Shown here: one piece after another, positions 6,710-54,885 of the stretch
Layout of the letters: the number at the start of each line of letters is the position of its first letter
Position numbering within the stretch: the stretch's first letter is position 1
Assembly: GCA_028292265.1 (NCBI GenBank)
Contig: JAQGMR010000052.1
Location: forward strand, 1-64,000
Direction: 5' to 3'
DNA from: Herminiimonas sp.
Lineage (GTDB): Bacteria; Pseudomonadota; Gammaproteobacteria; Burkholderiales; Burkholderiaceae_D
Length of the DNA stretch: 64,000 bases
Position numbers and translations under genes: made by a program
Notes under the pieces: generated by a model
Databases searched by the model: none
The model's input: only the letters and a program-made list of their open reading frames with translations
Told to the model about the DNA's origin: nothing

Positions 6710-6910
6710 GCGTCCTCACCGAAGTGTTTAACGCCAGGGCCGTTCCGGCCCCATGCACGTCGGACTGCGGGCTTAGACCGCTTCACACGCGGGAATACTT
6801 TCGGCACAGTGCTACCGCTGCGCCTCTCTTGACCGCATTCGTGGTCGACCCTGCCCGCACATGCTGGCTTTTAATGTCGACGCAGGAGCGGCTACATCAT
6901 CAAAGGACCA

Positions 6911-33754: not shown

Positions 33755-36700
33755 TTATCCCGGCGCCCGCGTGGCGTGAAAGGCTTTATAGACCGCGGAT
33801 GCCATCATCCCTTGCATCGCCGCGAAGATTCGCTCGTCGGATAACAGCTGTTTCGCAATGGAGTTGTGGGCGTCCATTCCGTCAACAACCGTGTCAGCGA
33901 AAATCGCCTTGAAATCTCCCAGGCTGAACTGCTCCTCCGTATTGTTGGCGGCCTGTTCAGCCAAGGCGCCGCTCTCGAGTAGTTTGCTTTCCATCGTCTT
34001 CACATAGCCGATAAAATCGGCCTCGGTTAGCTCTCCCGCAAACAAGTCATTCATCTTCGAGACTATCTCGGAAAGTCGTTTTTCTTCGTCGGTCTTACTC
34101 TGCCCGCTACCTGTCTCGCCGGCCGGCGCCAAACGCTCGATTTCGCCCTTCTCTAGGTCGAGCTTTTGTTCGCCCAACTTCTGTAGACGATAGTGAGTGA
34201 GTCGGACATCTGAGTCGAGCTCCAAGATACTCGAAGAGCTATGCTCCGCAATTCGCGGCATAAGGTTTTTGCCGAAGACGTAGAGCTTTTCTAGCTCGTC
34301 ATCGTTGTAGGGGATTATCTGGGACAGAAAGTCGTACAAGCGCAGGAATGACCCGAGGTCCTTCCGGAACTGATGCGCATCTTCTTCTTCAAGGTGCTGC
34401 CACCTATCGGCGGCCAGCTTCAGGTAAGTATGCAGGGCGGACTGCTGGCGCTTCGGGTTGAAGAAGGCATCCCCAAAAAGCTCTACCTCAGACCAAAGAT
34501 AAACGCCTGCTTTTGATAGCTTTGTCTGCAGTTCGTGCACCAGGTTCGGGTCCGTCACGCCAGACAGCTCCGCTGTCCGGTAATAGGGCTTGAAACTCGC
34601 TAGAATCTCTTCGGGCTCGTTAACAAAGTCCAATACGAACGTGTCTTCCTTGTCCGGCCTAGTCCGGTTCAGACGAGACAGGGTTTGTACCGCCAGGACA
34701 CCAGATAAACGCTTGTCGACATACATCGTGTGAAGCAGCGGCTGGTCAAAGCCTGTTTGGTACTTATTGGCGACCAGAAGAACCCGGTATTCGTCATCCT
34801 TGAACGCTTCGGACGGCTCGCGACCATTAAGGCCAGGGTTCATGCTGGCTTCGCTGAATTCATTCGGTCCTGAATCTGCATCGGCGACTTTCCCGGAGAA
34901 AGCGACCAATGCCTGCAGGTCAGTGTACCCGCGGTCTTTGATGTATTTGTCGAACGCCAGTTTGTAGCGTACGGCTGCTTTCCGGCTGTCAGTCACGACC
35001 ATTGCCTTGGCCTTGCCGCCAATCTTGTGTGCCACTTTCTCGCGGAAGTGCTCGACGATAACGACCACTTTCTGGGCGATGTTGTGGGGGTGTAGCCGGG
35101 CATACCGTCCAAGTGCCTTGGCGGCCTTCCCAGACGGCACCAGCTTCTCGTCCGCAGTCGCTCCTAGCTTGTAGAACATCTGGTAGCTGCAGTAGTTCTC
35201 CAGCACGTCCAAGATGAAACCTTCCTCAATTGCCTGGCGCATGGAATAGACGTGGAACGCTTCTGGCAGGCCGCTAGGCCCCGGCCGCCCGAACAGCTCC
35301 AAAGTTTTCGACTTCGGCGTCGCGGTGAAGGCGAAATAGCTGACGTTGGTTGGTCGAGCACGGGACGCCATTACTTCGTTAATCACGTCCTCTGCAGTGA
35401 CGTCGTCAGGGTCAATCTCGACATCCACCTCAACTTCCACCGCCTGGCCATCCAGCTCGACAGTCACAAACTGCTTCTTCTTGACCGAGGTAAGTGCTTT
35501 CCTAACCTTCTGGGCCGCTGCCCCAGACTGGCTGGAATGCGCTTCGTCGACAATCAGTCCAAAGCGCTTGTCCTTCATTCCCTGGACCTTTTCAAGGATG
35601 AACGGGAATTTTTGAATGGTTGTTACGATGATGGGCGCACCGGCCGTAAGCGCCTCGGCTAGCTGTGTGCTGTTCTGGTCAATATTTTGGACGACACCTG
35701 CCTTCTGCTCGAACTGGGCGATGGTTTCCTGCAGCTGCTTGTCGAGCACCTTCCGGTCCGTGATAACAATGACAGAGTCAAAGACCTTTTTTCCATCCGC
35801 GCTGTGCAGCGATGCCGCGCGATGGGCCGTCCAAGCAATCGAGTTGGACTTGCCGGAGCCCGCCGAGTGCTGAACTAGATAGCAGTGCCCGGCACCTTCC
35901 TCGGCCGCCGCCTTAACTAGTCGGAGAACCACGTCAAGCTGGTGGAAGCGAGGGAAAATAAGCGTCTCCCGAGTCTCCTTCTTGCCCTTTACCTCGACAT
36001 CCTTCACTTCTAGGTGCAAGAAGTTGCCGAGAATGTCGAGCCACACGTCTTTGGACCATACAAGCTCCCACAGGTACCAGGTGGGGTAGCCCTTACCTCT
36101 GATTGCGGGTGGGTTGCCGGCGCCGGCGCCGCCGAGGCCATCAGGCTTTCCCAGGTTGAAGGGCAGGAAGAACGTGTTCTCCCCTTCGAGCTTGGTCGCC
36201 ATGAAAACTTCGTCGGTCGATACGGCAAAGTGGACGAGAGCGCGCGTTTTGAACTGCAGCAGCGCTTCGATGTCCTTCGTCTTCGCGTCTCTTGGCAGCC
36301 GGTCTTTCTTGTACTGGGTGATGGCGTCGCGAATGTTCTGGGTCAGGTCCGTCTTCAGTTCGGCAGTAGCGACCGGAAGGCCATTCACGAATAGAACGAC
36401 GTCTATGCTTTTCTCGTTCGACAGGCTGTAGTGGAGCTGGCGGATGGCCGTCAGGCGGTTCTGCTCGTAGAGCGCTGAAAGGTCCGGATTCTTGTCATGC
36501 GCCGGCCGGAACTGGCATAGCTGGAACTTGGCATCGCGGTCCTTGAAGCCGTTGCGCAGTAATTGCAGTGTGCCGTGCCTGTCCAGCTGCTCAGCGACGC
36601 GTTTGACGAAAATCTTCTCGGATTCGCCGTTGTGCCAACGCTTGAATTTTGCCCACTCAACGGGCTGGGTAACCTGCACAAAGGCGAGCAGGTCTTCTGG

Positions 36701-36835
36701 AAATAACGCTAGCGCACGGTCATAAGTTTTCGCGTCCTGCAAATGGGTCCGGACGGACCAGCCGTTGGCCGCTAAGTGAGCGCAAAGTTCGTCCTCAAAT
36801 ACCTTCTCGGTATGGACGTTGGAGAGTTGAGGCAT
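33755..36835 (-). CDS. hsdR: Type I restriction endonuclease subunit R
   Basis: 1026 residues, full length for HsdR. The N-terminal nuclease has LFVNGLPVATAELKTDLTQ (D...ExK). Walker A HSAGSGKSNSIAW is followed by DEAH-type VDEAHSSQSG and further SF2 translocase motifs (FAFTATPKSKTLELFG, VANKYQTGFDQPLLHTMYVD, QTLSRLNRTRPDKE). The C-terminal helical domain contacts the methylase. AAGGGA precedes the ATG. Acts with HsdM and HsdS to translocate DNA and cleave unmodified foreign DNA. The gene looks intact, while hsdM of the same operon is frameshifted. Confidence 0.95.
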   Translation of the reverse strand: MPQLSNVHTEKVFEDELCAHLAANGWSVRTHLQDAKTYDRALALFPEDLLAFVQVTQPVEWAKFKRWHNGESEKIFVKRVAEQLDRHGTLQLLRNGFKDRDAKFQLCQFRPAHDKNPDLSALYEQNRLTAIRQLHYSLSNEKSIDVVLFVNGLPVATAELKTDLTQNIRDAITQYKKDRLPRDAKTKDIEALLQFKTRALVHFAVSTDEVFMATKLEGENTFFLPFNLGKPDGLGGAGAGNPPAIRGKGYPTWYLWELVWSKDVWLDILGNFLHLEVKDVEVKGKKETRETLIFPRFHQLDVVLRLVKAAAEEGAGHCYLVQHSAGSGKSNSIAWTAHRAASLHSADGKKVFDSVIVITDRKVLDKQLQETIAQFEQKAGVVQNIDQNSTQLAEALTAGAPIIVTTIQKFPFILEKVQGMKDKRFGLIVDEAHSSQSGAAAQKVRKALTSVKKKQFVTVELDGQAVEVEVDVEIDPDDVTAEDVINEVMASRARPTNVSYFAFTATPKSKTLELFGRPGPSGLPEAFHVYSMRQAIEEGFILDVLENYCSYQMFYKLGATADEKLVPSGKAAKALGRYARLHPHNIAQKVVVIVEHFREKVAHKIGGKAKAMVVTDSRKAAVRYKLAFDKYIKDRGYTDLQALVAFSGKVADADSGPNEFSEASMNPGLNGREPSEAFKDDEYRVLLVANKYQTGFDQPLLHTMYVDKRLSGVLAVQTLSRLNRTRPDKEDTFVLDFVNEPEEILASFKPYYRTAELSGVTDPNLVHELQTKLSKAGVYLWSEVELFGDAFFNPKRQQSALHTYLKLAADRWQHLEEEDAHQFRKDLGSFLRLYDFLSQIIPYNDDELEKLYVFGKNLMPRIAEHSSSSILELDSDVRLTHYRLQKLGEQKLDLEKGEIERLAPAGETGSGQSKTDEEKRLSEIVSKMNDLFAGELTEADFIGYVKTMESKLLESGALAEQAANNTEEQFSLGDFKAIFADTVVDGMDAHNSIAKQLLSDERIFAAMQGMMASAVYKAFHATRAPG

Positions 36836-36880
36836 GGCATCCCTTAAGTATTTTTATAATTTGTCGGGTTTTCCGCTGCT

Positions 36881-37906
36881 CTAGGTCTGCGGAGGCGGTT
36901 CTTTTGTATAGAGCACTTCGATATAGGCGCCGTCGACAATCGGTCGATAATTCAACCCAAACGCAGTCATCAACAATACGCAGGGCGGAATCAACTGTTT
37001 GAGCTCGAGGACCGAGTCCCAGTGGGGGCGCTTCTGGTCAAGGGCTTCAAGTGCTGCAAAACACGCGTCCCACGCGAGGAGTAGGTCGAACTTTATCAAG
37101 CAAGATTCAAGGGTGCTGGAATGCTCTTTAAGTGTTGCGCCGGTCGCAGCCAAAGTGCCCATCGCGTAGCCAAAGCATTGAGCAATAAATCGAACCTTTG
37201 CCTCCGCGACGGAGCGTAACGCAGCGAGGTCGTGGCTAACGCGATACGTCAGAATGGCCGCTATAACGTCTGCCCGTATCGTCGGAATCACCTCGCAAAG
37301 AAAGTCAGAATATTGATGAATATCGGTCCAGGGGCCGCACGAATATTTGTTTGCAAAATACTCATCCCAGAGCGATTCAGCTATGGGCAGAAAATAGCTT
37401 CCAAAGCCGGCTATCCCTTTGGCGTCGGGGTGCTTCTCCATAAGCCCGAGCTTCAAGTCAAAGTCATGAACATGACAAAGCTCATGCCGCAGAGCGTTAA
37501 CAGCCAAATCCCGATGCTTTTCAACTTCTGACAGAAGTCCCTTTGCTATGGCCTCGTCCATAACTAGTTTCACGCCATCGCCGCTTCGAAACACCATTCC
37601 AATGCTTAGTCCGCCCGCCTCTTTCGTCGGAGCCGGAGAGAGTGGACGGTCTGCTGATGCGTCTCGAATTCCCTGCTCATAGTCGTGGTGAAAGATGACT
37701 TGACGCAGCCTTGCGAAATTCATCCACGGGTGGGTGTCGCGTAGTAGTAAGGCTTGAATACGAACCTGCAAGGCAACTCGTTCCGCCATGTCTTGGTCCA
37801 AGCTCCCGACAAACGATATAAAACAGCTTAGCGGCGGATTTTTCTCAAGCTGTTCTATTACCCACTCGACCGTTGCTTCGGCATCGAGCGCCGGGCCGTC
37901 AGTCAT
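36881..37906 (-). CDS. HExxH metallopeptidase-like protein inside the R-M operon
   Basis: 341 residues. NALRHELCHVHDFDLKLG contains HExxH at about 141-145, and SLWDEYFANKYS about 40 residues later supplies a candidate third zinc ligand (Glu 182), like the ImmA/IrrE-type gluzincin layout. No signal peptide or membrane helix, so cytosolic. The start overlaps the hsdS stop by 4 bases, and hsdR begins 45 bp after its end, so it is part of the operon. A protease in this position might control the restriction subunit or be an independent effector; both ideas are inference. Confidence 0.7.
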   Translation of the reverse strand: MTDGPALDAEATVEWVIEQLEKNPPLSCFISFVGSLDQDMAERVALQVRIQALLLRDTHPWMNFARLRQVIFHHDYEQGIRDASADRPLSPAPTKEAGGLSIGMVFRSGDGVKLVMDEAIAKGLLSEVEKHRDLAVNALRHELCHVHDFDLKLGLMEKHPDAKGIAGFGSYFLPIAESLWDEYFANKYSCGPWTDIHQYSDFLCEVIPTIRADVIAAILTYRVSHDLAALRSVAEAKVRFIAQCFGYAMGTLAATGATLKEHSSTLESCLIKFDLLLAWDACFAALEALDQKRPHWDSVLELKQLIPPCVLLMTAFGLNYRPIVDGAYIEVLYTKEPPPQT

Positions 37907-39204
37907 GCGGCCTCCTCGAGTACCCCAACATCCACTTGGCCCGTGACCGTGGCCGAAATGAGGGACGAGCGGTATTCGCGAAGGCGGTCAATATGCTGTT
38001 TGACGTGGTTGAGCAAATTGGCGGTGGCCGCAGCTGAGCGACGTACTTCTACGAGTATGGCAAGCCGTTCCTCCTCCGGCGGCAGCGGCACGGGCAACTC
38101 CCGAACATTTGACTGATTTATCGACGCCAAATTGGTACTTTGCTTCGACCGGAGGAAGAAATATGACCTTGCGGCGTCAGTCGAAGTGAAGCGGGCGACC
38201 CATTCAGCCAGCGAGACGTCGAACAGGCGAACAGCGAAAACGTGGTTCTGATGTATGCAAGGGTCAATCTGTTCCTCCCAGACTGTGCCGCGCCCTAGTT
38301 TGTCGTTGTCGCCGCCCTCGTTCATTAATACATCACCTTTCTTGAGCAAGTAGCGGGCTGCTTCGCAGGGCGCCACTTCAATCTCGAGCACTTCGGTCAG
38401 GTCTACGTAGCCGTCTTGAACATTGGCTACCCGCAGATAGGGCAATGAGATGGTGTCGGTTTCCCCATGGTCTTTGCCCTTTGCGACTCCGGAGCGCACG
38501 TCCCCAAGAAATTTGAGCCGTTTTACAGCCCATTGTTTTGGAATCGACCCTAGCTCGGGAAAGCTCGTCTGCTGAAACTCCACGCCGGACGTCATCCCTT
38601 TTGTCATTAGCTTGGACGCATAGCTGTACTGGTACTCGGATAGGCGCTGGATTAACCGCTCCTTCTCTACAATCAAAGCATCGACCCGCGCCGTCTTTTC
38701 GTCGAGGAAGCTGGCGATGCAGTGCTGCACGCGCGGCGGAGGTATCACTATAGGGAGGCGCCTCAAATCCCCGTATTTCATGGACTGGCGCAGGCCTCCG
38801 CCCATGCGATAGAAAAGTTTGGCAAGGTCGTAGCCACGTAGCAGATAATGCGCAAAGCGCGGGTTGAGGTTTGAGGATGCGGTAACGGTAATGTATGCCG
38901 ACGTAATAATTCCACGCTCCGTTACGCGTCCGGTGCGGAGGCTTCGCTGGTCGTTTTGCAAGTCGGTCAGTCGCATTACGATGTCATCCGGTTCTACGAT
39001 GTTGTAGCCTTCAAACGAAGCCGGTAACAATCCGTAGTTGCTTTCTACATCTCTCTTAACAATACGGCCGTAGCTAAGCGATAGGACACGGTTCTCCTGC
39101 AAACCAACGTTGGGTCGCACTCGCTCGCTGAAAACAGAGAAGAATGGCTTTAATCGCCACTCCGTAGGCAAAGGCGGTAGCCAGTCCGCAAGAGCTTCGC
39201 TCAT
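37903..39204 (-). CDS. hsdS: Type I restriction-modification specificity subunit S
   Basis: 433 residues with two target recognition domains. TRD1 starts LPTEWRLKPFFSVFSERV, and its conserved helix is HCIASFLDEKTARVDALIVE. TRD2 starts LGSIPKQWAVKRLKFLGDV and ends with ERLAILVEVRRSAAATANLL. These repeats are standard for HsdS, which selects the bipartite DNA target and docks HsdM and HsdR. The ATG overlaps the hsdM stop (ATGA). The target sequence cannot be read from the protein. Confidence 0.93.
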   Translation of the reverse strand: MSEALADWLPPLPTEWRLKPFFSVFSERVRPNVGLQENRVLSLSYGRIVKRDVESNYGLLPASFEGYNIVEPDDIVMRLTDLQNDQRSLRTGRVTERGIITSAYITVTASSNLNPRFAHYLLRGYDLAKLFYRMGGGLRQSMKYGDLRRLPIVIPPPRVQHCIASFLDEKTARVDALIVEKERLIQRLSEYQYSYASKLMTKGMTSGVEFQQTSFPELGSIPKQWAVKRLKFLGDVRSGVAKGKDHGETDTISLPYLRVANVQDGYVDLTEVLEIEVAPCEAARYLLKKGDVLMNEGGDNDKLGRGTVWEEQIDPCIHQNHVFAVRLFDVSLAEWVARFTSTDAARSYFFLRSKQSTNLASINQSNVRELPVPLPPEEERLAILVEVRRSAAATANLLNHVKQHIDRLREYRSSLISATVTGQVDVGVLEEAA

Positions 39205-41008
39205 GCAACCACTCCTTTCATTAGTCCAAGGAACCGCTTTTCCATCTCCCGAATATCTCCGGCGATTACGTGGGGCGGCCGCGGCGCTTTGTAGACGTAG
39301 AAGTACCGGTTGAAGTTAATTTCATATCCTACTTTACCGACCTGACCGTCCTTCTCGTCAGTTATGCCTTTATTGACCCAGGCATCCGGCACGTGCGGTA
39401 GCACCTCCCGCTTCACATAATCTACAATCGATTCAACCATTGGAATACTTTCGGTATCGCGCAAATCTTTATCGAAGGGCTTTTCCCCTTTTTTGAATTT
39501 GACCGTTGTGCCTGCGGCAGGCGGTCGGTCAATCGTGACTTTGCGATAGCCGAAAAATGTTGTTCTGAAAATCTTGCTCACTATCCGAGCGGGTTCCACC
39601 TCTGCGGCGACACCTTGTTTTAGCCGTTCTTTGAACTCATTCTCAAAGCTGGTTTCCTCTTTGAAGCCAGCATAAGTGGCGACAATCTCAGTAATTTGCG
39701 GGTCCGTAATTTCAACACGCTTGCTACCGAGCGATTTTTGCTTCTTGCCATACATCCGGGTAGCGTCGATAAGCTGCACCTTGCCTTTGCGGGCGCCGGC
39801 TTTTGCGTTATCGAGAATCCAAACATAGGTGGCGATACCGGTGTTGTAGAAAAGGTCGTTCGGTAGCGCGATAATAGTTTCAAGCATGTCATTTTCGAGC
39901 AGCCAACGACGGATTTCCGATTCGCCGGAGCCGGCGTCGCCCGTAAACAATGGCGAGCCATTCAGGACTATGCCAATACGGCTACCCCCTTCGCTTGACG
40001 GCCGCATCTTTGACACCAAGTGCATTAGGAACAGCAATGAGCCGTCTGATATGCGGGGCAGGCCAGGGCCGAAACGGCCGGCAAAGCCTTTCTTTTCATG
40101 CTCCGATTTAACGACGTACTGTGCCTTCTTCCAGTCGACGCCAAACGGTGGGTTCGACAGCATGTAGTCGAATTTTTCGTTGGGAAATTTGTCATCGGAG
40201 AGCGTATTGCCGCGCTTTATGCGGGCAGGGTCCTGGCCCTTAATCAGCATGTCCGCCTTGCAGATGGCATACGACTCGGGATTCAGCTCTTGGCCGAACA
40301 TTCGGAGGCGCGCCGAGGGATTCAGCTGTGCCATTGTCTGTTCGCCAATCGACAGCATGCCTCCTGTGCCGGCGGTAGGGTCGTACATCGAGCGTACGAT
40401 GCCTACTTGCTTAGTGCCTCATCGTCGCCGGCGAACAAGATATGAACCATCAGCTTAATGACTTCCCGAGGAGTGAAGTGCTCACCGGCGGTTTCATTGG
40501 ATGTCTCGGCAAAGCGGCGAATCAGCTCCTCGAAGGCGTAGCCCATCGTTTCGTTTGGCACTACATCGGGGTGCAGGTCGATGGCCGCAAACTTCTGAAC
40601 CAACATGAAAAGGAGACCTTTTTCGTCCAGGTCGGTCAGCCGCTCGGAAAACTGGAATCGCTCGAAGACATCGCGGGCCTCGGCAGAAAAGTCGCCAAGG
40701 TAGGCAGTCAAGTTCTGACGGATGTGCTTCGGGTCGTCAAGGAGGCTTGGCAACGTGAACTTGCTGATGTTGTAGAACGCCTGTTTGCTTTTGCGTTGGA
40801 GGAAGATATCGAGTTGAACCCCTTCGTCCTTGCGCTTAGCGTATTCAGCCAGTACGGCGTCCTTGGTCGATTCTAGGACGCAGTCCAGGCGGCGCAGTAG
40901 CGCAAAAGGCATGATGATTTTGCCGTAGTCGGCTTGTTTGTAATCCCCACGAAGCAGGTCTGCGACAGACCATAGAAAATTCGCGATTTCGTTAAAGTTT
41001 TGTGACAT
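39201..41008 (-). pseudogene. hsdM: Type I DNA methyltransferase subunit M, frameshifted
   Basis: Two reading frames make one HsdM. Residues 1-201 (41008-40403) run from NEIANFLWSVADLLRGDYKQ to EHFTPREVIKLM and GDDEALSK, then stop. The rest, in the next frame, reads GIVRSMYDPTAGTGGML (SAM motif I), SNPPFGVDWKKA (motif IV) and the C-terminus to 39201. Joining them needs one extra base at about 40403-40408, within the normally unbroken link between FTPREV and motif I. Together they equal a normal HsdM of about 600 residues. Modification should be lost unless frameshifting, split-protein function or a sequence error explains it. Confidence 0.85.
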
Positions 41009-42121: not shown

Positions 42122-42180
42122 AAATGCGTGCCGCGATGAGGCAGGGGCTAACTTTACCTGGAGGTTTAATGAACAACGAT
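42122..42180 (+). repeat. Duplicated 58-bp leader element, copy 1
   Basis: ATGCGTGCCGCGATGAGGCA, then GGGGCT, then ACCTGGAGGTTTAATGAACA. About 50 of 58 positions match copy 2 at 44052-44109. It contains a small TGCC...GGCA hairpin and a strong Shine-Dalgarno (TGGAGGT) before an ATG. Confidence 0.6.
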
Positions 42181-42376: not shown

Positions 42377-42802
42377 CTACCTCTTGTGAGGGGCGTAGCG
42401 GGCGCAGACGACCCACAACGCCTTCTCACCAAATGTATCCGGCGCCGAGGGCGTGAATGCTATGGAATGAACTGGAGTAGTCTCGCTGTAGATTCTCGCT
42501 CCCTCCCCGTTTTTGCCCTCGTAAAAGATGCCGGAACGGTGACCGCTTTCCTGCGCCGCGCAGTCGAAATACATTAGTGAAATCATGGACTGGTACGTTT
42601 TGCCCCCTACGGTTTGGGGAGTTACATAGTTGAGCTTTGTCCAAGCCTGCGGGTAGTCAGAAACCCGCGCGATGCTGGTCACGTCTAGGAAAAACTCTTC
42701 GATAGAACTGCCGCCTAAGGAGCGCCAATCCGCCGCGGAAGCCGTTGAAGCCACTAACAAGCACAAGCACAAGCACAAGCTCAATGCGATTCGGCTTTTC
42801 AT
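42377..42802 (-). CDS. Secreted protein, surface-adhesin-E-like, paralogue 3
   Basis: 141 residues, signal peptide ending STASA-AD. The mature domain is DWRSLGGSS, FFLDVTSIARVSDYPQAW, YQSMISLMYFDCAAQES and CARYAPHKR. The pattern (WxxLG, acidic D strand, YPQAWxK, DCA) matches small exported proteins of the surface-adhesin E type. One of three tandem paralogues on this strand; the Cys in FDCA and the one near the end could form a disulfide. Function unknown; likely periplasmic or surface. Clusters of (ACAAGC)n-like repeats encode part of its signal peptide (CLCLCL). Confidence 0.6.
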   Translation of the reverse strand: MKSRIALSLCLCLCLLVASTASAADWRSLGGSSIEEFFLDVTSIARVSDYPQAWTKLNYVTPQTVGGKTYQSMISLMYFDCAAQESGHRSGIFYEGKNGEGARIYSETTPVHSIAFTPSAPDTFGEKALWVVCARYAPHKR

Positions 42803-42805
42803 CGG

Positions 42806-43195
42806 CTATCGCTTCTTACCGGGGAAGCGAGCGCAGACGATACGCATCGCTGCCTCGCCAACAGTGCCCGGCCCATGAGGTGCGAAGCGCATTTCTTCCA
42901 CCGGCGTTGAGATTGTGAGAACCACGCGTCCCCCTGGTTCGGGCAGCTCATACCAAATTGCGGTACGGATGGCGCTCTCCTGCGTAGCGCAGTTGTAGTA
43001 GGCGAGCGATACGCCGGCGCGGTAGGATTGGCCGTTATACATTTTCCCTTCCGGGTACGTTGTTTTGTCCCACGCCTGCGGGTAGGTGCCAAGCCAAGCC
43101 AAGCTGCTCATGTCGAGGTAGAACCCGCCACCGTCACTTGATGCCAAATCGCGCCATTCGGGCGCCGCCGCAGCAAGGCTGCATGTCGCCGCCAA
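42806..43195 (-). CDS. Secreted protein, surface-adhesin-E-like, paralogue 2 (short signal)
   Basis: 129 residues from a TTG at 43195. The mature part EWRDLASSDGGGFYLDMSSL and YNCATQESAIRTAIWYELPE align with both neighbours. The signal peptide is only about 11 residues (LAATCSLAAAA), and the TTG has no ribosome binding site. The gene begins 2 bp after the stop of paralogue 1. It looks as if a deletion fused the tail of one copy to the head of the next; export may be impaired. Confidence 0.5.
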   Translation of the reverse strand: MAATCSLAAAAPEWRDLASSDGGGFYLDMSSLAWLGTYPQAWDKTTYPEGKMYNGQSYRAGVSLAYYNCATQESAIRTAIWYELPEPGGRVVLTISTPVEEMRFAPHGPGTVGEAAMRIVCARFPGKKR

Positions 43196-43197
43196 AG

Positions 43198-43596
43198 CTA
43201 CCGGGTGCAGACGATGAGCATTCCAACGTCGCCGAAGCTGTCGGGCGCAGCGGGCGTGAACCGTAGGTCTTTTACCGGCGTCAGATAGTCGAAAACTTTG
43301 TCGCCCTCACCGTCCAATCGCTCGTAAAGGATTGCTATTCGGTGAGCGCTTTCCTTCGCAGCGCGGTTATAAAAAGTCAGCGATACAAGGGACCGATAGC
43401 CTTTGCCCTCCAAGATTTTAGTAGCGGCATAGTTCATCTTGAGCCAAGCCTGCGGATAGTCGCCAATCTGAGAGACGCTTGCAATATCAATGTAAGCGGC
43501 TTCCTTATCGTTGGCCCCAAGACTGCGCCAGTCTGACGCGGCCATGGCCGTCGCGCAGCTCGCTATCAGAGCCGCTGCCATTATTGTCTTTTTCAT
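43198..43596 (-). CDS. Secreted protein, surface-adhesin-E-like, paralogue 1
   Basis: 132 residues from ATG 43596 (MKKTIMAAALIASCATAMAA signal peptide; GGAGGGAATATG is the leader). Mature part SDWRSLGANDKEAAYIDIAS and YPQAWLKMNYAATK. It ends at IVCTR, lacking the basic tail seen in the other two (PGKKR, APHKR), and the DCA cysteine is changed to NRA. First gene of the three-gene tandem set. Confidence 0.6.
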   Translation of the reverse strand: MKKTIMAAALIASCATAMAASDWRSLGANDKEAAYIDIASVSQIGDYPQAWLKMNYAATKILEGKGYRSLVSLTFYNRAAKESAHRIAILYERLDGEGDKVFDYLTPVKDLRFTPAAPDSFGDVGMLIVCTR

Positions 43597-43704
43597 ATTC
43601 CCTCCCGCCACGATACTAACCGATGATTCGGCGTGTTTATCTCTTTTTGCAGCAGCCGGCTAACCGTCCTGTCTATACGAAGCACACACGACAGGAGCTT
43701 TTCC

Positions 43705-44051: not shown

Positions 44052-44109
44052 GAATGCCTGCCGCGATAAGGCAGGGGCTCACTTTGCCTGGAGGTTTAAT
44101 AGACAACGA
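44052..44109 (+). repeat. Duplicated 58-bp leader element, copy 2
   Basis: ATGCCTGCCGCGATAAGGCA, then GGGGCT, then GCCTGGAGGTTTAATAGACA. The Shine-Dalgarno is kept but the ATG of copy 1 is ATA here. About 250 bp of downstream sequence holds no supported gene. Confidence 0.55.
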
Positions 44110-44364: not shown

Positions 44365-45291
44365 TTACAGGGCCCGCAATTTGAACTGTTCGGCTGTCCA
44401 CAGAGACGTAGCCGCAGCCAAATCGCCCGGGCGGCGCTCGCTCGATGCGATTTCACCGATAGCTTTTGGCGCATCACCGTACACCTTAATACGCGTCATC
44501 TTCGGCAGATGAAAACCTATAATTTCTTTCAAGTTGCGAAGTTCACCGTCCCGCCCTGCCCCCGGCGCAAGCTGAGCAAAGTTTTGCCCCTGCCATTTCC
44601 TTTTTACTCGTCCCCAGTGCGTGTCGGCGTGCCGATGAACCGCAATTACATGGTTCCGTACACCCGAAAATAGTGGCCGCTCCCGCTGACAAGCGAGTAT
44701 GCCCAAGACTCCCCATGGGCGCCGGCCGTTGCCTCCTTCGTCGCCATACTCAAGGTTTGCAACAGCCCGTTCAAGGGACGCTTTCACTTCATTAAGTGCA
44801 GCATCGGTAAGTTTCCAGGTCCAGGTCGAGCGGTCCTTCAATACCAGTTTTTCCCTTCCCGTTTTAGCGTCAGTTAGCTTCCTTGCGTCCTTCTTATGCG
44901 CGTAAAGCAGGACGTAATCGGTGAAAAAAATGTGACCGTCCGACGCCATTGCGTTCTTCGCCATGTGCGCATCTGGGCTCGCCGGGTCGTTCAATCCACA
45001 CTTCCCTTCGTCGGATAAAAGCCACCATGCGACGTTATTCTCCCCTACCGGAAAGACCACCAAATGTACCGCTGCACGACCGCGAATTCGGTCATAGGCG
45101 CGTCCGCGCGTCGGTCGAGTTATCCGGTACCGGGAAGCCATCTTCGCGGCAAAGGCGGCCAATCGCGATGGCTTAATGATGCCGCCGCACCACCAGTAAT
45201 GGTGACGAACAACCAGCAACTGCAGGTGCTGCATTAGGGCGGTTTTGTTGCGTGGGACTTTGAGTTGAAGGGCTGCATCGGAGGCTTTCAT
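44365..45291 (-). CDS. Hypothetical protein, 308 aa
   Basis: Start taken at ATG 45291 (MKASDAALQLKVPRNKTALM); the frame is open 67 codons further but that part is not protein-like. Features: LLVVRHHYWWCGGIIKPSRL, VHLVVFPVGENNVAWWLLSD, HIFFTDYVLLYAHKKDARKL, and a basic stretch HWGRVKRKWQGQNFAQ. Predicted cytosolic, mixed alpha/beta. I believe similar replication-region proteins of unknown function occur on plasmids and integrative elements, but cannot name the family. It ends beside a structured RNA region. Confidence 0.65.
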   Translation of the reverse strand: MKASDAALQLKVPRNKTALMQHLQLLVVRHHYWWCGGIIKPSRLAAFAAKMASRYRITRPTRGRAYDRIRGRAAVHLVVFPVGENNVAWWLLSDEGKCGLNDPASPDAHMAKNAMASDGHIFFTDYVLLYAHKKDARKLTDAKTGREKLVLKDRSTWTWKLTDAALNEVKASLERAVANLEYGDEGGNGRRPWGVLGILACQRERPLFSGVRNHVIAVHRHADTHWGRVKRKWQGQNFAQLAPGAGRDGELRNLKEIIGFHLPKMTRIKVYGDAPKAIGEIASSERRPGDLAAATSLWTAEQFKLRAL

Positions 45292-45649
45292 AGTTGATAG
45301 GGCGTCGTGCCGGAGGTTGTTGGTACGACGTATAGCGAGCGGCGTCGAAAGCCCGCATGGGCCGTGTACCGACGCGAAGTCGGTTGCAGACAATGAACCC
45401 ATTGCGTTTTTTCGCGACATGTCGCTATACATGTGCGAGGTCAACACGCGACTTTGCATCGCACTGGACCACTGGCGCGCCAACGCCAGCACTACCGAAC
45501 ATACGCATCACCATGCTCGCAGTGCTGACCGGTCGCCAACCGTTCAGCACTGCATTGTCAACTTTTCATTCGGCATAAACCAGGTTAGCCGCCTGGTGCC
45601 ACAGCGCGTAGTGCATCCCAAAAAGGTGCCTGCTACGTGTCGGAAGGGG

Positions 45650-46737
45650 CGCGGGGAGTAATACCTCCTGAGGAGGAGTAATCCCCCGCGTCTACTTCAT
45701 ACCGATGTGCATGGCCGAGCATGGCCATGCATCAAAACGACGCACATTTTGGTACACAAGTACTGTGCGTGAATCCGTGCGATTGGGACACAGACATTGA
45801 TTCTTTCAATGGGGCGCAAGCCTGTGACCACTGACCTTGTCCGTCGGTGCGAGCTCTTGATATGCGAAATGACAGTAAAGCCTGTCCGCCGGCGTGCCAC
45901 CTCTTCGGCAGGAAGAGACGCACGACGGAAAGCCCACGCGTAGTCAGACCGGGTGAGTCGAGGCGCGCAAGCGTCGTAGACCACGGGCATACACGAAACC
46001 GACTGGAATCGGTAGAGGGGTATGCACAGCAGCAAAGGATGAACCGGGTCGCGCCGGGAAGTCCTTTGCGTTGTCTGGAGCAAAAGCGTGTAAGTGCCCG
46101 CGAGGGCATTGGGAGAATAAGAACCAGCTAGGGCCTGCAGTGCCTGGAATTCTTGGAATTGAACTGGGAACATCACGATGAGTAGCCGCCCGCTTAATGG
46201 GGTCGGGGCGATGAAATCGGGGAAAGCGCCTGAAAGTGATGCAGCTCGAGAGAGACTGGTGGTCTGTTCGTAAAGCTTTGCGTATCTAACCAAAACAAAA
46301 TGGACCGCGGTGCGGGGGTTTTCTGGCTCCCCGCAAACCAAGGTCTATAAGCCGATTGCTGTCGTAGCGCCGGAATATCGGTGCCTAAGGGCGGGGGTCA
46401 TTCCCTGGACAAGACGTTTCCCTGAGTATGCAGTCGAGTGGCCGGCGAGAGCCGAGTCGTTTGAAAAGTTGATGAGCGTAGTGAAACCAGAATCCCTTGG
46501 CGGGGGTTCATGGGAATGGAGGCCTTGACGGGCATCCACCGACTTCTGTAGCAGCTTCAAACGCAAGCCCGGGTTGGCGCCCGGGTGAGCGATGCTGACA
46601 AACAGATTGGCTGGGAAGCGCTGGCGGGAGTCAGCAGCTTAACCAGCAGCGAAGGTGAGAGAATTGAGTCGTCAGCTGGCCAAGTTATGCTTGCCATCTG
46701 ATTTCTGTTTAAGGCTGCCGACTATGTCGGCAGCCTT
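45650..46737 (+). ncRNA. Candidate large structured non-coding RNA
   Basis: At least a dozen strong hairpins follow each other with no supported gene. Examples: 45650-45690 (CGCGGGG/CCCCGCG enclosing CCTCC/GGAGG); 45708-45731 (TGCATGGCC/GGCCATGCA); 45789-45826, a closed three-way unit (CACAG/CTGTG around CATTGA/TCAATG and a GC-GCAA-GC loop); 45962-45975 (GGCGC-GCAA-GCGTC); 45998-46013; 46032-46069 (GCAAAGGA/TCCTTTGC); 46094-46109 (GTGCCC-GCGA-GGGCAT); 46312-46334; 46567-46584; 46711-46737 (12-bp stem). Several loops are GNRA tetraloops, a hallmark of folded RNA. Strand inferred from those loops. No group II intron domain V or RT was found. Confidence 0.6.
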
Positions 46738-46796
46738 CCCGACAAGACGAAGAGGTGGCGAGCAGACTGCCTTCCACTGGGGCGCGTCCGCCATGA

Positions 46797-46997
46797 GCAG
46801 ACGATGCCATCAACCGGCAGAAACGTGCACTCATCGATGGCGCCGACATTCCGCATCGATGGCATGCCGAGCTTAATTTGAAGACGCTCGGCACGGTTGT
46901 GAACAAGGCGTTGCCTGTATTCGGTCCGGAGCGGACGGCCTTGAGTATGTTGAGACAGAGCGGCGAATCAGACTTGGCGGGCCAGAACAACGGGTAG
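46797..46997 (+). pseudogene. Protein fragment without start codon
   Basis: The frame reads DDAINRQKRALIDGADIPHR, WHAELNLKTLGTVVNKALPV then FGPERTALSMLRQSGESDLA before a stop. It is amphipathic and protein-like but opens directly after a TGA with no ATG, and nothing upstream continues it. Probably the remaining C-terminus of a deleted gene. Family not recognised. Confidence 0.35.
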
Positions 46998-47115
46998 CAG
47001 CACGGGCATGAGCTGATTCATAGTCGGATTTGGGCTGAACTGTATCGAATTCAAAGGTCAGAAATCGACGAAAGTCCTAGTAACTCAACAGCCGCTTTAA
47101 AGCTATGCTTGCGAT

Positions 47116-50100
47116 ATGAATATCGACCTGCGACGGACCTTTTCACAGCACACAGACGCCGCGACTGACAGCGATGACTCGGACTGGAGCCAATTCCTAG
47201 ACCAACGACAAGGCCGCAGCACATGGACGGACCTTCACGATAAGCCGCTCCTTGTTGTTCTTGGTGAGGCGGGCATTGGCAAGACCATCGAGTTTCAGAG
47301 CGAAGTTGGAAGACTGCGGGAGGCCGGTCAACTAGCCTTCTTCATCCCGCTGAACCAGCTATCTGACTCCGAGTCCTGGAGACTTGTACTCACCGGACAT
47401 GACGCAGAATTCGACGCTTGGGCTGCATCGGATGGGCCCGGCTACTTTTTCCTCGATGCAGTGGACGAAGCTCGCCTCAAATCGCATGCCGACTTCGAAA
47501 AAGCACTCGCAGTCGTTCAGCGAGCGCTCGGCTCGAACTTGGCCAGAGCGCGTATTGCCATCTCTTCACGGGTCACGGACTGGTCAACACCCGGGGTTCG
47601 GTCAGCAGTCGACGCCCGCCTCGCGAAGCCCATTGAGCGCGCCCTCGCGGCCAGAACAGCTGCTGAAGCTCCGCTACCCTTGCCTGATTCGTCCACCGTT
47701 GCTGTCCCTGCGTTAGGCGCGGCGCCCTCCGTGGAGGCATTTGTCGTCGGTCTGGACCCATTGTCGAACTCCGAGGCTCACCGATGCGCCGCTGCATTTG
47801 GCCTTCATGGTGAAGACCAATTTTGGACAGCAGTAGCGGACGGGGACTACGAGTTCATGGCGACACGTCCGCTGGACTTGCGGTGGATGGTCGTGCTTTG
47901 GAACCAGCGCAGGAGCTTGGGTACGTACCGCGAGCTCATCGAGGCGAACATCTCCAACCGGCTGTGTGAGTTCAACGAAAACTACGAGGCCGCGGGTGAG
48001 GTCGTATCAGTCGACCAGCTTCGCGCGGGGGCTATGGAACTGGCAGCAGCCGCGGAGTTTGGGGGCTGTGCGTTCTTCAGCCTGGACCCTGGCATGACCC
48101 CGACGGTTAGCGAACTGGCTCCGCATACCGTCCTTGCTGATTGGCCTCCGACATCTGTCCGGCGGCTTCTGGCCACCGCTTTGTTCGACGAAGCCAGCTT
48201 TGGGCGTGTCAAGTTCCACCACCGTTCTATTCGCGAGTTCTTGGCGGCCCAGTGGGTAGCTAAGCAACTGGCCATCGGTGTGCCGCTCCTGCGCCTGCAA
48301 CGACTCTTTGCAGGGTGCCCCTTCGGCCCGGCTGTGCTAATCCCTGCGCGCAGAGCGGCGCTTAGCTGGTTGGCGGCAATCAACGTCACGGCTCGCGAGT
48401 GGGTGGTGCGCGAGTTCCCGGAAACCCTTTTTTTCGAAGGTGACCCCCAAGCTTGGGACGGGATTTCAGCAGACAAAGCGTTTGCGAATTTCATCGAAGC
48501 GACGAAGCGCGGCCTCGAGGTGAGCTTGTTCAGGAGCGCCAGCGAGTACATGCGTGTGGGGCGCGCCCTGCGTCCCGGTAAGGTCGCCGAAGCACTGGCC
48601 GATGTCAGCATGCCGACACAAGTCAGGACCATGTGCTTCCATATTGCGCGGCATGCAAAGCTTGCCGATTGTGCACTGATTTCGTTCGCGACCTATAGGG
48701 ACCCCGCCGCGCCGTCTTGGGAGCGCTCGCTTGCGCTCGACGTTCTTGAGCACGTGGGAACGGCGGACCAGCGGCAGCAAGTTCTGGCCGACTTGAAGGC
48801 CGGTCTGGTGGGCACAAACGAGCTCATCGCCCATGCCCTGCCTGTTGCGGACTGGAAGCACCTCACCGAAGCTGAGCTGTCAGCCGTCTTCGACACGACC
48901 TACGGCGAGGCGGAGTACGGCTCAGGGCCGTTAGTTAGAGTAGTCAAGAACGAGTTTCTTCAAGCGGCTGACCTGCCGGCCACATTACTGCTACTTGGGG
49001 CGGTCATGACGTCCTTGCCGCGCCCAGTCCTCGGCGAGCGTTTTGCTCGGTTCCCGGAATCCGACCAACCGGAGAGAGCGTGGCTGCTCGAGGTCCTACC
49101 TGCCTGCTACGAGCGCGCGCTTGCATCGCTACCGTCGACGGTTGACTCCTACCCTGCGGTTTGCGTAAAAGCTGCGGAGCGAATCGAAGCTCAGCGCGAC
49201 TCAGGGTTCACTGACCGAGACGAGTTCAATCGACTAGACGAGGCTATCGCACGGCATACAGAACTACGTTGGAATGTAGCCCTAGCCATTGCTCAGTCCG
49301 AAGACATCAGTGCGTCGGTCAGCCGGCTGACATGGAGGGCCAACTGCCTTGTGAACTTTGGTGCGGCGGACCTGCCTGAGCTCTCTAGGCGAGCGAACGA
49401 CCCGGCACGACCTGCCGATGAGCGGGACATTTGGTTTGCCGTGGCTATGGCAGTTGCATTCTCCCGACAACATCGTCGGGAGCGTGCTAACGCACTCCGG
49501 GAGATTGGTCTGGGAAGCGCAGGGTCGGCGCGAGCCCTCCTCGTTGGAGCCGAATACAATCGATGGCGCAAGGGTGCAAACCAACGGCGTGAATGGACGG
49601 GTTTGGAACGCGAGAGGAAGACGGTCGCCAAGCAGACAATCGAAGACTACAAGTCGCAGCTACTTGCGAACTTGGCGCATATTCGCGACGGAACCTATGC
49701 GGGCTCACTGCAAGGTTTGCTTCAATACTCTTTTGGGCGCTTGGGGCAACGCACCTACTCGGACCTGGACTTCGACGCGATTGCGATGAGCCTAAGCCCT
49801 GAAATCGCCGCGGCGTTTGAGGATGGCCTGAAGGCGTACTGGCCCACCGTGACCCCGCCGAACCCTTCGGCCTACACCAACGGCAATATCCCTTGGATTG
49901 CGCTCATTGCACTTGCAGGGATTGGCAGGTCCCTTCGAGACGCAGGTTCAATTTCAGCGCTATCGACGACGAATGCTGCGAAAGCTGCGCAGTTTGCCGT
50001 GTGGGAGCTGAACGGTCCGCCACCTTGGTTCGAGGCGCTTGCTCGCTTGCACCGGACGGACGTGGAAGCGTCTCTGACGTCTTGGGTGGTCGCCGACGCT

Positions 50101-52844: not shown

Positions 52845-54590
52845 CTAGCGGGTAAAGAGTTCCGGTACCACGCCCTCCAAGGGGCTCGCAACATACAGGC
52901 GCGACAGGTCAAGTTCCGCATAGCGCAGCGTGCGCATCGCGTTGCAGAGCGCCACGAAGTTGTACTGCCGGTTCGCACTTCTCATGTATGCTTTTCCGGA
53001 TTTATCCTTTGTCAGCCAGTGCCCAACGAGCGCATCACGAACTTCATCGTCAACGCCGCACTGGGTGAGGCGCTGCTTGAAGTTGTATCTGAACGCGTGA
53101 TAGTCGAGCTGTCCTGACGCCATACCCATCTTTTTGAGGAAGCGGCCAAACCACTTTCCGAGTTCGTTGGACCACCTTCTATACCTGTTCTCGCATTTCA
53201 GCGACGGAAACAACCGCTTTTCGCCCCGACGCTTGAGGTCGCATACGTACTGCAAAAACCCCAGCTTAATTAGCTCATCGTGGATAGGTATTCGACGGAA
53301 GCTGTTTGGCGTTTTCAAGGCTTGTGTCTCCTTATCAAGGTCGCAGATACGCAGCGTCCAGATACCATTGATGATTTCTATGTCGACTAGGCGCATCTGT
53401 GCGATTTCCTCTATGCGAGCGCCGACAAACGGCGCCATCAGGGTTGCCCAGTAGCCGGCTTCCTTCACCTGCCCTTTAGGCACGTGTCGTTCGATAAAAA
53501 ACGGTGTGGAATAAAGGGTATTCAGCTCCGACATTTCGAAGGCGCGACGGTCTTTCACGGCGCGTTGGTGCTGCCCCTTGTCGTTCACACGAATGTTGTG
53601 AAAGGGATTTACGGTGCCCTCGATATGCATTTCTTCGAAATAGTTGTTCACCACGGCTCGCAACAATCCCAAGCGATTACGGATGGTTGCGGCCGATAAC
53701 TGCTGCGCCATCAACTTGTCCCGAAATTTTTTGACAAGTTCTTTTGAAATGAGAGAGGCAGGCGTATCGCCCATGAGTGAGCACCACATTTGGACCATTC
53801 GCGACGTCGTCTCGAGCGTTTTAAGCGGGCGCACCTTTGCACTCGCCCACACGGCGAGGTAGTCGGGTAGCTTGGGTTGTAACCGTATCGGTAGGGACGT
53901 GCTAGGCGTGGGCTGCTTCTTGCCGTCAAGCCTCGCACGCTGCTCGCGCAGAATCGCGACTTCCGCTTCTAACAGTTTTTCACAAAACTCGGTATGGACT
54001 GGCGACCCTGCACGTGATTTCAGACCCTCCCCTGCCAGAAGCTGGCGTCCGGTCTCTTCGACCGCGGATGTATCACTGCAGGTGAGCGCCGCTTCATAGT
54101 ACTGGAGCATTTCGTCGGCATCCGCCTTGCGCCTGACCATTTCCGCCGCGACGGGATTCCGCATTTCGCGCAGTTCCTGTTCCTCGCGCTCAAGCATATG
54201 GACGTAGTAACGCTGGACCAGCGCGGGAACCATGTCTTCACTGAGCTCTACGACATTGGACGGAGGCGCAGTCGTAAGTCCTTCGCTGGCCATCCGCAAC
54301 CGGACGGTCGTCACCCGCAGTTCAAAAGCGGCCACTTCCTTAGCCAGTACCCAGCATGCCCGCGCAAAATCGGTTGTGTCGAGCGACTTCCAGATTTGTG
54401 ACTGCCCCCCCAACTCACGGACCAGGGAGCCGGGCACCTTGCGCTTGAAGTAATAGACTCCCTTGCGCTGCGCCAGATACTTTGGAAAATTTGGGGTAGT
54501 ACCGCGAACGGGGGACGGGTTTTGTCGGGCTTCGGCTGCGGCCAAACGAAATGGGGATTGTTGTGAAAGAAAGGAAATCGCGGTGGCCAT
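52845..54590 (-). CDS. Tyrosine recombinase (island integrase)
   Basis: 581 residues. The N-terminal arm (YYFKRKVPGSLVRELGGQSQ, WKSLDTTDFARA) is the Arm-DNA-binding form of large phage-type integrases. The core-binding helices precede the catalytic domain, in which I see Arg in VGARIEEIAQMRL, HxxR as YHAFRYNFK, GHW and the nucleophile Tyr in KAYMRS. It excises and integrates the island through the 3' end of the neighbouring tRNA-Ser gene, 200 bp away. GGAG lies about 10 bases before the ATG. Chromosome genes start directly beyond the tRNA. Confidence 0.93.
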   Translation of the reverse strand: MATAISFLSQQSPFRLAAAEARQNPSPVRGTTPNFPKYLAQRKGVYYFKRKVPGSLVRELGGQSQIWKSLDTTDFARACWVLAKEVAAFELRVTTVRLRMASEGLTTAPPSNVVELSEDMVPALVQRYYVHMLEREEQELREMRNPVAAEMVRRKADADEMLQYYEAALTCSDTSAVEETGRQLLAGEGLKSRAGSPVHTEFCEKLLEAEVAILREQRARLDGKKQPTPSTSLPIRLQPKLPDYLAVWASAKVRPLKTLETTSRMVQMWCSLMGDTPASLISKELVKKFRDKLMAQQLSAATIRNRLGLLRAVVNNYFEEMHIEGTVNPFHNIRVNDKGQHQRAVKDRRAFEMSELNTLYSTPFFIERHVPKGQVKEAGYWATLMAPFVGARIEEIAQMRLVDIEIINGIWTLRICDLDKETQALKTPNSFRRIPIHDELIKLGFLQYVCDLKRRGEKRLFPSLKCENRYRRWSNELGKWFGRFLKKMGMASGQLDYHAFRYNFKQRLTQCGVDDEVRDALVGHWLTKDKSGKAYMRSANRQYNFVALCNAMRTLRYAELDLSRLYVASPLEGVVPELFTR

Positions 54591-54791: not shown

Positions 54792-54885
54792 TGGCGGAGA
54801 CGGTGGGAGTCGAACCCACGATACAGGTTTAAGCCCATATGCTTCCTTAGCAGGGAAGTGCCTTCGACCACTCGGCCACGTCTCC
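54792..54885 (-). tRNA. tRNA-Ser (anticodon GCU), island attachment site
   Basis: 94 nt on the reverse strand. The acceptor stem is GGAGACG/CGTCTCC, discriminator G and encoded CCA. The anticodon loop is CTGCTAA (GCT) and there is a long variable arm, as expected of class II tRNA-Ser. The T loop is GGTTCGAATCC. Its 3' end points to the integrase, so the core att site most likely lies in the T-arm/acceptor region. I did not find a second copy of this 3' end in the window, so the other att site is outside. Confidence 0.95.

Follow-up and report, generated by a model that had tools for sequence, protein, structure and literature searches.

Organization of the locus

The window analysed here, a 64 kb stretch of Herminiimonas DNA, carries a large structured non-coding RNA of about 1.27 kb at about 45472-46737 on the + strand. 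A gene encoding a homologue of AcpG is divergent from it. The RNA lies between a type I restriction-modification locus (33758-41008) and a gene for a HyoA-like NACHT protein, on an island that also carries genes for an integrase and tRNA-Ser; the mobile-looking setting recognized in a preliminary description of this DNA was supported. A 24-nucleotide piece of the tRNA-Ser end, searched for as an att repeat with up to three mismatches allowed, did not recur in the window. The coordinates of the features are given in Table 1.

The HyoA-like protein was matched by NCBIfam NF058534 over residues 5-1414 with 704 bits, below the curated cut-off of 1200 bits, and had no Pfam match at 0.001. A homologue about 41% identical is encoded in genome G382. 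The name HyoA was not found in the literature among the matches listed. The distance from the RNA to this gene, put at about 380 bp before, was measured as 378 bp from the last hairpin to 47116, and the relation between the NACHT gene and the RNA is one of adjacency only.

On the other side of the RNA, a 57-nucleotide direct repeat (42123-42179 and 44053-44109, 89% identical, 1.93 kb apart) flanks two Adhesin_E genes (42377-43195) and a similar-looking third open reading frame (43198-43611). An hsdM-like methylase is encoded in two adjacent frames on the - strand (39201-41008; HsdM_N at 40403-41008, N6_Mtase at 39201-40388), which is either an interrupted gene or a sequencing artefact.

Table 1 Features at the RNA locus (positions in the window; R1 is the covariance model described in the text)
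Feature	Position	Strand	Basis or remark
acpG homologue, 308 amino acids, ATG at 45289-45291	44365..45291	-	Divergent from the RNA; profile E=5.1e-42
5' hairpin CUGGCG-[CGCCAA]-CGCCAG (P1/P2-type element)	45472..45489	+	Hexaloop complementary to two 3' loops
Second 5' hairpin, loop UCGCCAA	45519..45553	+	Inverted repeat I1
Domain 5 (D5): lower stem, 2-nucleotide bulge CU, 5 bp upper stem, 7-nucleotide loop CCAAAAA	45604..45641	+	R1; minimum-energy fold
Domain 6 (D6), long form, AGUAAU on both sides of inner stem	45643..45700	+	R1; alignment with relatives; fold
3' splice site (predicted), D6 end AU	45700/45701	+	Alignment and fold
Linker between reversed splice sites, predicted 76-nucleotide circle	45701..45776	+	Lies between the end of D6 and the beginning of D1
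5' splice site and start of domain 1 (D1), GUGCGAUUGGGACACAGAC; D1 extends downstream	45777..45795	+	Alignment with relatives
Conserved D1 core around AGGGCCUGCAGUGCCUG	46042..46218	+	nhmmer profile of four relatives, E=8.9e-9
3' hairpin GAAUCCC-[UUGGCG]-GGGGUUC, 7 bp stem	46490..46509	+	Loop complementary to the 5' CGCCAA loops
3' hairpin, [UUGGCG] loop, 7 bp	46567..46586	+	Fold and motif count
3'-most perfect 12 bp hairpin, possibly the RNA end	46711..46737	+	Inverted repeat I5; no T run after it
HyoA-like NACHT protein, 1418 amino acids	47116-51372		NF058534, 704 bits, nearly end to end
Integrase gene	52845-54590
tRNA-Ser	54792-54885

Folding and extent of the RNA

Folding of 45474-46737 on the + strand gave -544.6 kcal/mol against a mean of -474.0 kcal/mol for 24 dinucleotide shuffles (standard deviation of a single shuffle roughly 9); the corresponding values for the - strand were -481.6 and -438.6 kcal/mol. 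With the + strand about 70 kcal/mol below its shuffle mean, the large ornate non-coding RNA originally proposed is borne out. The two lowest-energy non-overlapping 1.05 kb stretches of the + strand in a coarse scan of the window were 46201-47250 and 45001-46050. Windows of 150 nucleotides on this strand reached z values of -3.7 to -5.8 within 45601-45800, within 45951-46100 and several times within 46501-46800. Those starting at 46051, 46101 and 46151 had z values of +2.1, +1.5 and +0.8, no better than shuffles, so that the expression 'wall-to-wall' hairpins was too strong for 46051-46300.

The interval first delimited, 45650-46740, is indeed structured RNA of the + strand, but its 5' boundary had to be moved by about 180 nucleotides: 5' hairpins are found from 45472 and D5 from 45604, and a start at 45650 cuts D6. 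Three hairpins singled out within it (45708-45731, 46032-46069 and 46711-46737) were all present in the minimum-energy fold. Both types of GNRA loop reported were also located in the sequence, as GGC-GCAA-GCC and UGCCC-GCGA-GGGCA. The longest open reading frame of the stretch (214 amino acids, - strand), which was the only one scanned, had no Pfam match, in agreement with the lack of a credible gene, and the statement that the RNA contains no reverse transcriptase was likewise supported. A promoter scan yielded no promoter-like site. The terminator scan called one site, on the - strand, below the shuffle mean, and none at 46711-46737.

Rfam 15 was searched at the gathering thresholds, and the only match in the window was a tRNA elsewhere. 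At E<=10 over 45300-47120 five weak short matches were obtained, none of them to a group II-like or comparable large RNA. GOLLD, ROOL and OLE have Rfam models.

Domain anatomy

Read along the + strand, the RNA opens with the 5' hairpins and continues with D5 and D6; then comes the 3' splice site, which a linker separates from the 5' splice site, and D1 and other domains follow. Having D5 and D6 5' of D1 is what defines circularly permuted (CP) group II RNAs, described in 2021, and the new class suggested at the outset was not supported. Domain V had been reported as missing because the interval then considered starts 3' of D5, which lies just outside it.

Published CP group II RNAs carry D5-D6 at the 5' end together with a divergent gene of about 260 amino acids, AcpG, and the divergent arrangement of acpG and RNA is described for T. 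thermophilus (Roth et al., 2021; PMC8637638). The window RNA resembles this class (T-large; PMC8637638) in having D5-D6 before D1, reversed splice sites, a bulged A in D6, a divergent acpG and 5' hairpins. Its linker of 76 nucleotides compares with predicted circles of 32, 35, 50 and 86 nucleotides for four tested members (PMC8637638). It differs from the CP RNAs in the available text of that paper in its length, the published average being about 900 nucleotides, and in the D5 bulge, given there as UN (PMC8637638).

The predicted branch point is the bulged A45694 in D6, followed by CUUCAU; the column of this A is invariant across nine relatives (alignment A3). D1 starts with GUGCG at 45777, a GUGYG-like motif 76 nucleotides behind D6. 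The long D6 with its two AGUAAU segments has the same or nearly the same letters in L054, L055, L079 and L080. The D5 triad reads CGC where AGC is expected, as it does in four of the nine aligned relatives (L054, L055, L057 and L058), and the seven-nucleotide D5 loop contrasts with the six-nucleotide loop with UAAU or UAGU of most relatives. Similarity to the relatives is low 3' of 46218 in both profile and alignment, and D2-D4 could not be told apart. An EBS1-IBS1 pairing could not be assigned in the window RNA, and none was consistent among the relatives.

Assignment to the CP group II family

A covariance model of D5-D6 (R1) was built from the nine relatives of alignment A3 with the window excluded. 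Its best match in the 64 kb, both strands included, was 45604-45700 (25.2 bits, E=5.4e-4), followed by a match of 10.5 bits (E=1.1). When R1 was run unfiltered over 3 kb (44500-47500) the same segment had E=2.5e-5 and the next best site scored 6.5 bits (E=0.39). The stems put forward in the preliminary description invited a comparison with homologues, and covariation was examined on D5-D6: all 12 pairs of D5 are kept in every one of the nine relatives and six are changed on both sides.

A nucleotide profile of four relatives (L054, L055, L079 and L080; window excluded), picked after these had been noticed to have a long D6 like that of the window, matched 46042-46218 with E=8.9e-9 and 45603-45712 with E=3.0e-7, the next match having E=4.4. 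The two matches are colinear on the same strand, with D5-D6 5' of D1. A profile of 24 relatives was too general and gave only E=0.63 and 1.8 at the two sites.

R1 matched 27 of the 30 loci given to it (nine being its training set), 26 of them at E<=7.2e-6; no match was present in L043, L090 or L062, the last a NACHT locus without acpG. L043 and L090, from Acetobacteraceae plasmids, encode acpG homologues of a long form (about 389 amino acids); in the stretches covered these either lack a CP RNA or have one that has diverged too far. In L086 (Pandoraea oxalativorans pPO70-4, 1055-2569) the CP RNA appears to be interrupted by an IS256 transposase gene (1137-2402), with R1 matches on either side of it at 2509-2569 (E=7.2e-6) and 1055-1115 (E=0.002). 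A C4 antisense RNA scoring above the gathering threshold is located some 1-1.5 kb from D5 of the CP RNA in L055 (5577-5660) and in L061 (3742-3826), and may be a sign of phage-plasmid or satellite hosts. R1 also matched plasmid pPNAP05 of P. naphthalenivorans (139-212, E=2.6e-12) and, weakly, the Thermus plasmid pTT8 (E=0.071). The family is the published one because pPNAP05 is a reported carrier of an expressed CP RNA, near its origin of replication (Roth et al., 2021; PMC8637638). The L054 RNA scored 35.6 bits (E=5.9e-5) with the Rfam group II D5-D6 model, the gathering score of which is 40. The stretch is thus almost certainly a divergent CP group II RNA, and its partner gene, acpG, is read in the opposite direction.

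The relatives were reached only via the neighbouring protein, because DNA searches gave just short chance-like pieces. Using blastn, the window RNA had no relatives among plasmids and phages, matched only its own genome in a set of 60 relatives and, in a search at E<=1 of 399 genomes from the order, gave only short scattered pieces beyond the window (best 41 nucleotides, E=5.2e-4). In being diverged beyond nucleotide search it is unlike other CP RNAs. A genome scan using R1 with strict filters (E<=1e-4) detected CP RNAs in 23 of the 399 genomes; the window copy was not among them. When 11 stretches upstream of acpG homologues were compared, window included, nine (L042 and L054-L061) shared pieces that were mostly 66-87% identical and contained well-folded parts; L043 shared no piece and the window shared a single piece of 29 bp, with L061. 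Long upstream stretches poor in open reading frames measure 2.4 kb in L054 and 2.3 kb in L060. No plasmid relatives of the L055 RNA were found.

Complementary hairpin loops

CGCCAA occurs in the window in the loops at 45478-45483 and 45533-45539, and UUGGCG in those at 46497-46502 and 46574-46579; what is seen here is complementarity only. The motif was counted in 27 RNAs, comprising 26 relatives and the window; L042 and L083, close copies from one species, were both counted, and L086 was excluded because its D1 start could not be located. On the 5' side of D1, 34 hairpins had a GCCAA-type loop; they came from 18 of the 27 RNAs, and shuffles gave 0.75. Beyond the start of D1, on its 3' side, 36 hairpins had a UUGGC hexaloop, from 19 RNAs and compared with 0.95 for shuffles. 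Swapping the ends gave 2 and 0. The motif was chosen after viewing the sequences, which makes these counts post hoc; the shuffles and the swapped ends served as controls. One loop-loop pseudoknot between P2 and D2 and one between P1 and the 3' end are described for CP RNA (Roth et al., 2021; PMC8637638). Several complementary 5' and 3' hairpins per RNA go beyond the account in the available text of that paper.

The AcpG protein

A profile of ten homologues, built without the window and pTT8 proteins, matched the window frame with the E value listed in Table 1 and the pTT8 protein at 6164-6943 with E=8.9e-13. The latter is presumably TTHC007, judging from its position and length. These two were the only matches at E<=1 among 884 frames (the window, pTT8 and 30 kb of pPNAP05). 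Like AcpG of the TTHC007 family, the window protein is matched over most of its length and has a CP RNA as partner. With its 308 amino acids it differs from close relatives by two insertions, and it has Ala at position 104, a site occupied by Asp or Glu in 25 of the 28 members aligned.

The window protein had no match in Pfam, NCBIfam, PHROGs or PADLOC, and used as a query it found no match in viral contigs. Pfam searches with the 28 members gave only matches of single members (best E=0.0068), and the best E value for the AcpG alignment against the sequences of solved structures was 0.26. AcpG was not filed as a reverse transcriptase (RT) because the [YF]xDD motif, expected as the catalytic YxDD of RTs, is present in just one of the 28 members. 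According to the available text of the 2021 study, AcpG shows no homology with other known classes of protein (Roth et al., 2021; PMC8637638); this study was the only one naming AcpG among the literature matches listed.

Predicted fold of AcpG

AlphaFold2 models were obtained for the window AcpG (pLDDT 84, pTM 0.82; alignment of 16 rows) and for that of L059 (pLDDT 88.8, pTM 0.82), which is 23% identical to it. The two models are not independent because they were built from the same 16 sequences. Among solved structures neither model had a Foldseek match at E<=0.001, and the L059 model, which was the one compared with a viral library, had none there either; E was above 0.05 throughout.

The 1000 best chains from Foldseek were structurally re-aligned with VIA-align 2, for which best Z values of 7-8 are common even without true relatives. 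Group II intron maturases/RTs headed the list for both models and were aligned over most of the protein. For the window model the first rows were 8fli (Z 8.8; 221 residues, 5.3 Å), 8t2r (8.6) and 8t2s (8.5), with G2L4 RT (8.1, twice), DRT2 (6.8) and entries containing Prp8 (6.4, 6.2 and 5.9) further down; the first unrelated row had Z 5.6. The L059 model gave 8t2r (Z 8.9; 190 residues, 4.0 Å), 8t2s (8.9) and 6me0 (8.7), then DRT9 (8.1), GsI-IIC (8.0 and 7.7), G2L4 (7.6) and DRT9 (7.3); the first unrelated row had Z 7.2 over 67 residues. Rows other than RT-like proteins (for example the Rev1 C-terminal domain with Z 7.2 over 67 residues; PheRS and CorA with Z 5.6 and lower) mostly covered the helical C-terminal part and were judged to be common helical arrangements.

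The predicted fold of AcpG is thus likened to group II maturases/RTs (8t2r, 8t2s, 8fli, 6me0 and GsI-IIC 7k9y and 6ar1) by the top rows of the two models. Unlike a group II maturase, AcpG is shorter, is encoded beside the RNA and not inside it, and has no significant sequence or Foldseek match. Six maturase frames (of nine loci), taken from this genome and its relatives, were compared with the AcpG alignment by hhalign, and the result was not significant (probability 0.1, E=0.52). In favour of the maturase match are the nature of the partner RNA, itself a group II ribozyme, and the leading place of maturases in both lists; the models suggest that AcpG is an RT-dead maturase remnant consisting of palm and thumb. 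A group II maturase domain is encoded on another contig (C31) of the own genome.

Alternative explanations

The window copy may descend from the family and have lost splicing, a decayed CP group II RNA being a less probable but appreciable sub-case of the preferred explanation. Decay would fit the unusual D5 loop and bulge, the unassigned EBS1-IBS1 pairing and the low similarity to all relatives. Against this, the D5 and D6 helices and the bulged A are preserved, as are the splice-site motifs (AU and GUGCG) and the two sets of complementary loops, and acpG is an intact frame of 308 amino acids. The unusual D5 also has a counterpart on pTT8 of T. thermophilus, where the CP copy reads with a longer D5 upper stem; the chromosomal T. 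thermophilus copy is active in vitro (Roth et al., 2021; PMC8637638), and D5 length there may therefore vary.

A new and unrelated giant RNA class of the GOLLD, ROOL or OLE kind could account for the strong folding and the lack of an Rfam match, but is very improbable in view of the colinear profile matches to CP relatives (3e-7 and 9e-9), the covariance-model match and the AcpG neighbour. The homology in D5-D6 would also suit a group II intron of the canonical kind, whole or fragmentary. Such an element is exceedingly improbable, as D5-D6 lie 5' of D1 in place of a D1-to-D6 order with outer splice sites, the stretch has no intron-encoded RT frame (the longest frame being without a Pfam match) and unfiltered R1 found no second comparable D5 site in 44500-47500. 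The RNA might also belong to the HyoA-like NACHT defence system, for example as a sensor or guide, given that the two are adjacent. This adjacency is a single one, the 17 kb around the homologue about 41% identical (L062) are without an R1 match and the stretches of acpG plasmids annotate no NACHT protein, although the last point is weak with many genes named just 'hypothetical protein'; a role in the defence system is accordingly given very little credence.

Proposed mechanism and significance

The analysis shows that the RNA and the protein belong to the family, and where D5, D6, the bulged A and the two splice-site motifs lie in the RNA. That the window copy is transcribed and catalytic, and that AcpG binds its RNA, is inferred. 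Five CP members are reported to be active in vitro (Roth et al., 2021; PMC8637638). In the mechanism expected by analogy with these, the bulged A45694 of D6 would use its 2'-OH to attack the 5' splice site (45776/45777), and the 3'-OH set free at 45776 would then attack the 3' splice site at 45700/45701. The expected products would be the 76-nucleotide circle (45701-45776) and a T-shaped branched RNA. The foremost candidate role of the branched RNA for the mobile element, though less likely than not, is that it attacks foreign RNA or DNA through the reverse reaction, as suggested by Roth et al. (2021; PMC8637638).

The CP group II RNA class is known and the window copy is a divergent new member of it; what is new, and unproven, is the resemblance of the modelled AcpG fold to maturases. 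This fold and the recurring hairpin loops go beyond the account in the available text of the 2021 paper. We lean towards the view, on the strength of the models, that AcpG is an RT-dead maturase of palm and thumb which would help the permuted ribozyme to fold in the cell. The chances appear evenly balanced for a wider proposal, in which AcpG would be the seemingly lost intron-encoded protein: its RT fold would have been cut to palm and thumb, dead and outside the intron, as a stand-alone maturase comparable to Prp8 in the spliceosome, with the CGCCAA and UUGGCG loops clamping the permuted ends. If true, CP group II RNA and AcpG would add a bacterial example, the second overall, of a group II intron made into a fixed ribonucleoprotein with no need of reverse transcription. 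The maturase role would make the permuted ribozyme a protein-assisted machine of retroelement descent, like the spliceosome. The fold comparison provides a first testable role for AcpG, that of an RT-dead maturase. The divergent window copy indicates that the CP family extends past what nucleotide searches and Rfam can reach, and that AcpG offers a way to find its members.

Occurrence of AcpG and CP RNAs

Homologues of the window AcpG were found in ten of 300 genomes of the order and in nine of 369 genomes of the class, the own genome being included in both counts. The number of plasmids with an acpG homologue was two with the window protein as the query and 28 with the Azotobacter homologue. 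Among the latter are ten E. coli plasmids of 28.6-35.4 kb, pFHI_NMBU_11_03 (L085) being one of them; D5-D6 of a CP RNA was found in L085, the one of the ten that was searched for it. The acpG homologues on these ten plasmids, annotated as hypothetical, are 34-35% identical to the Azotobacter protein.
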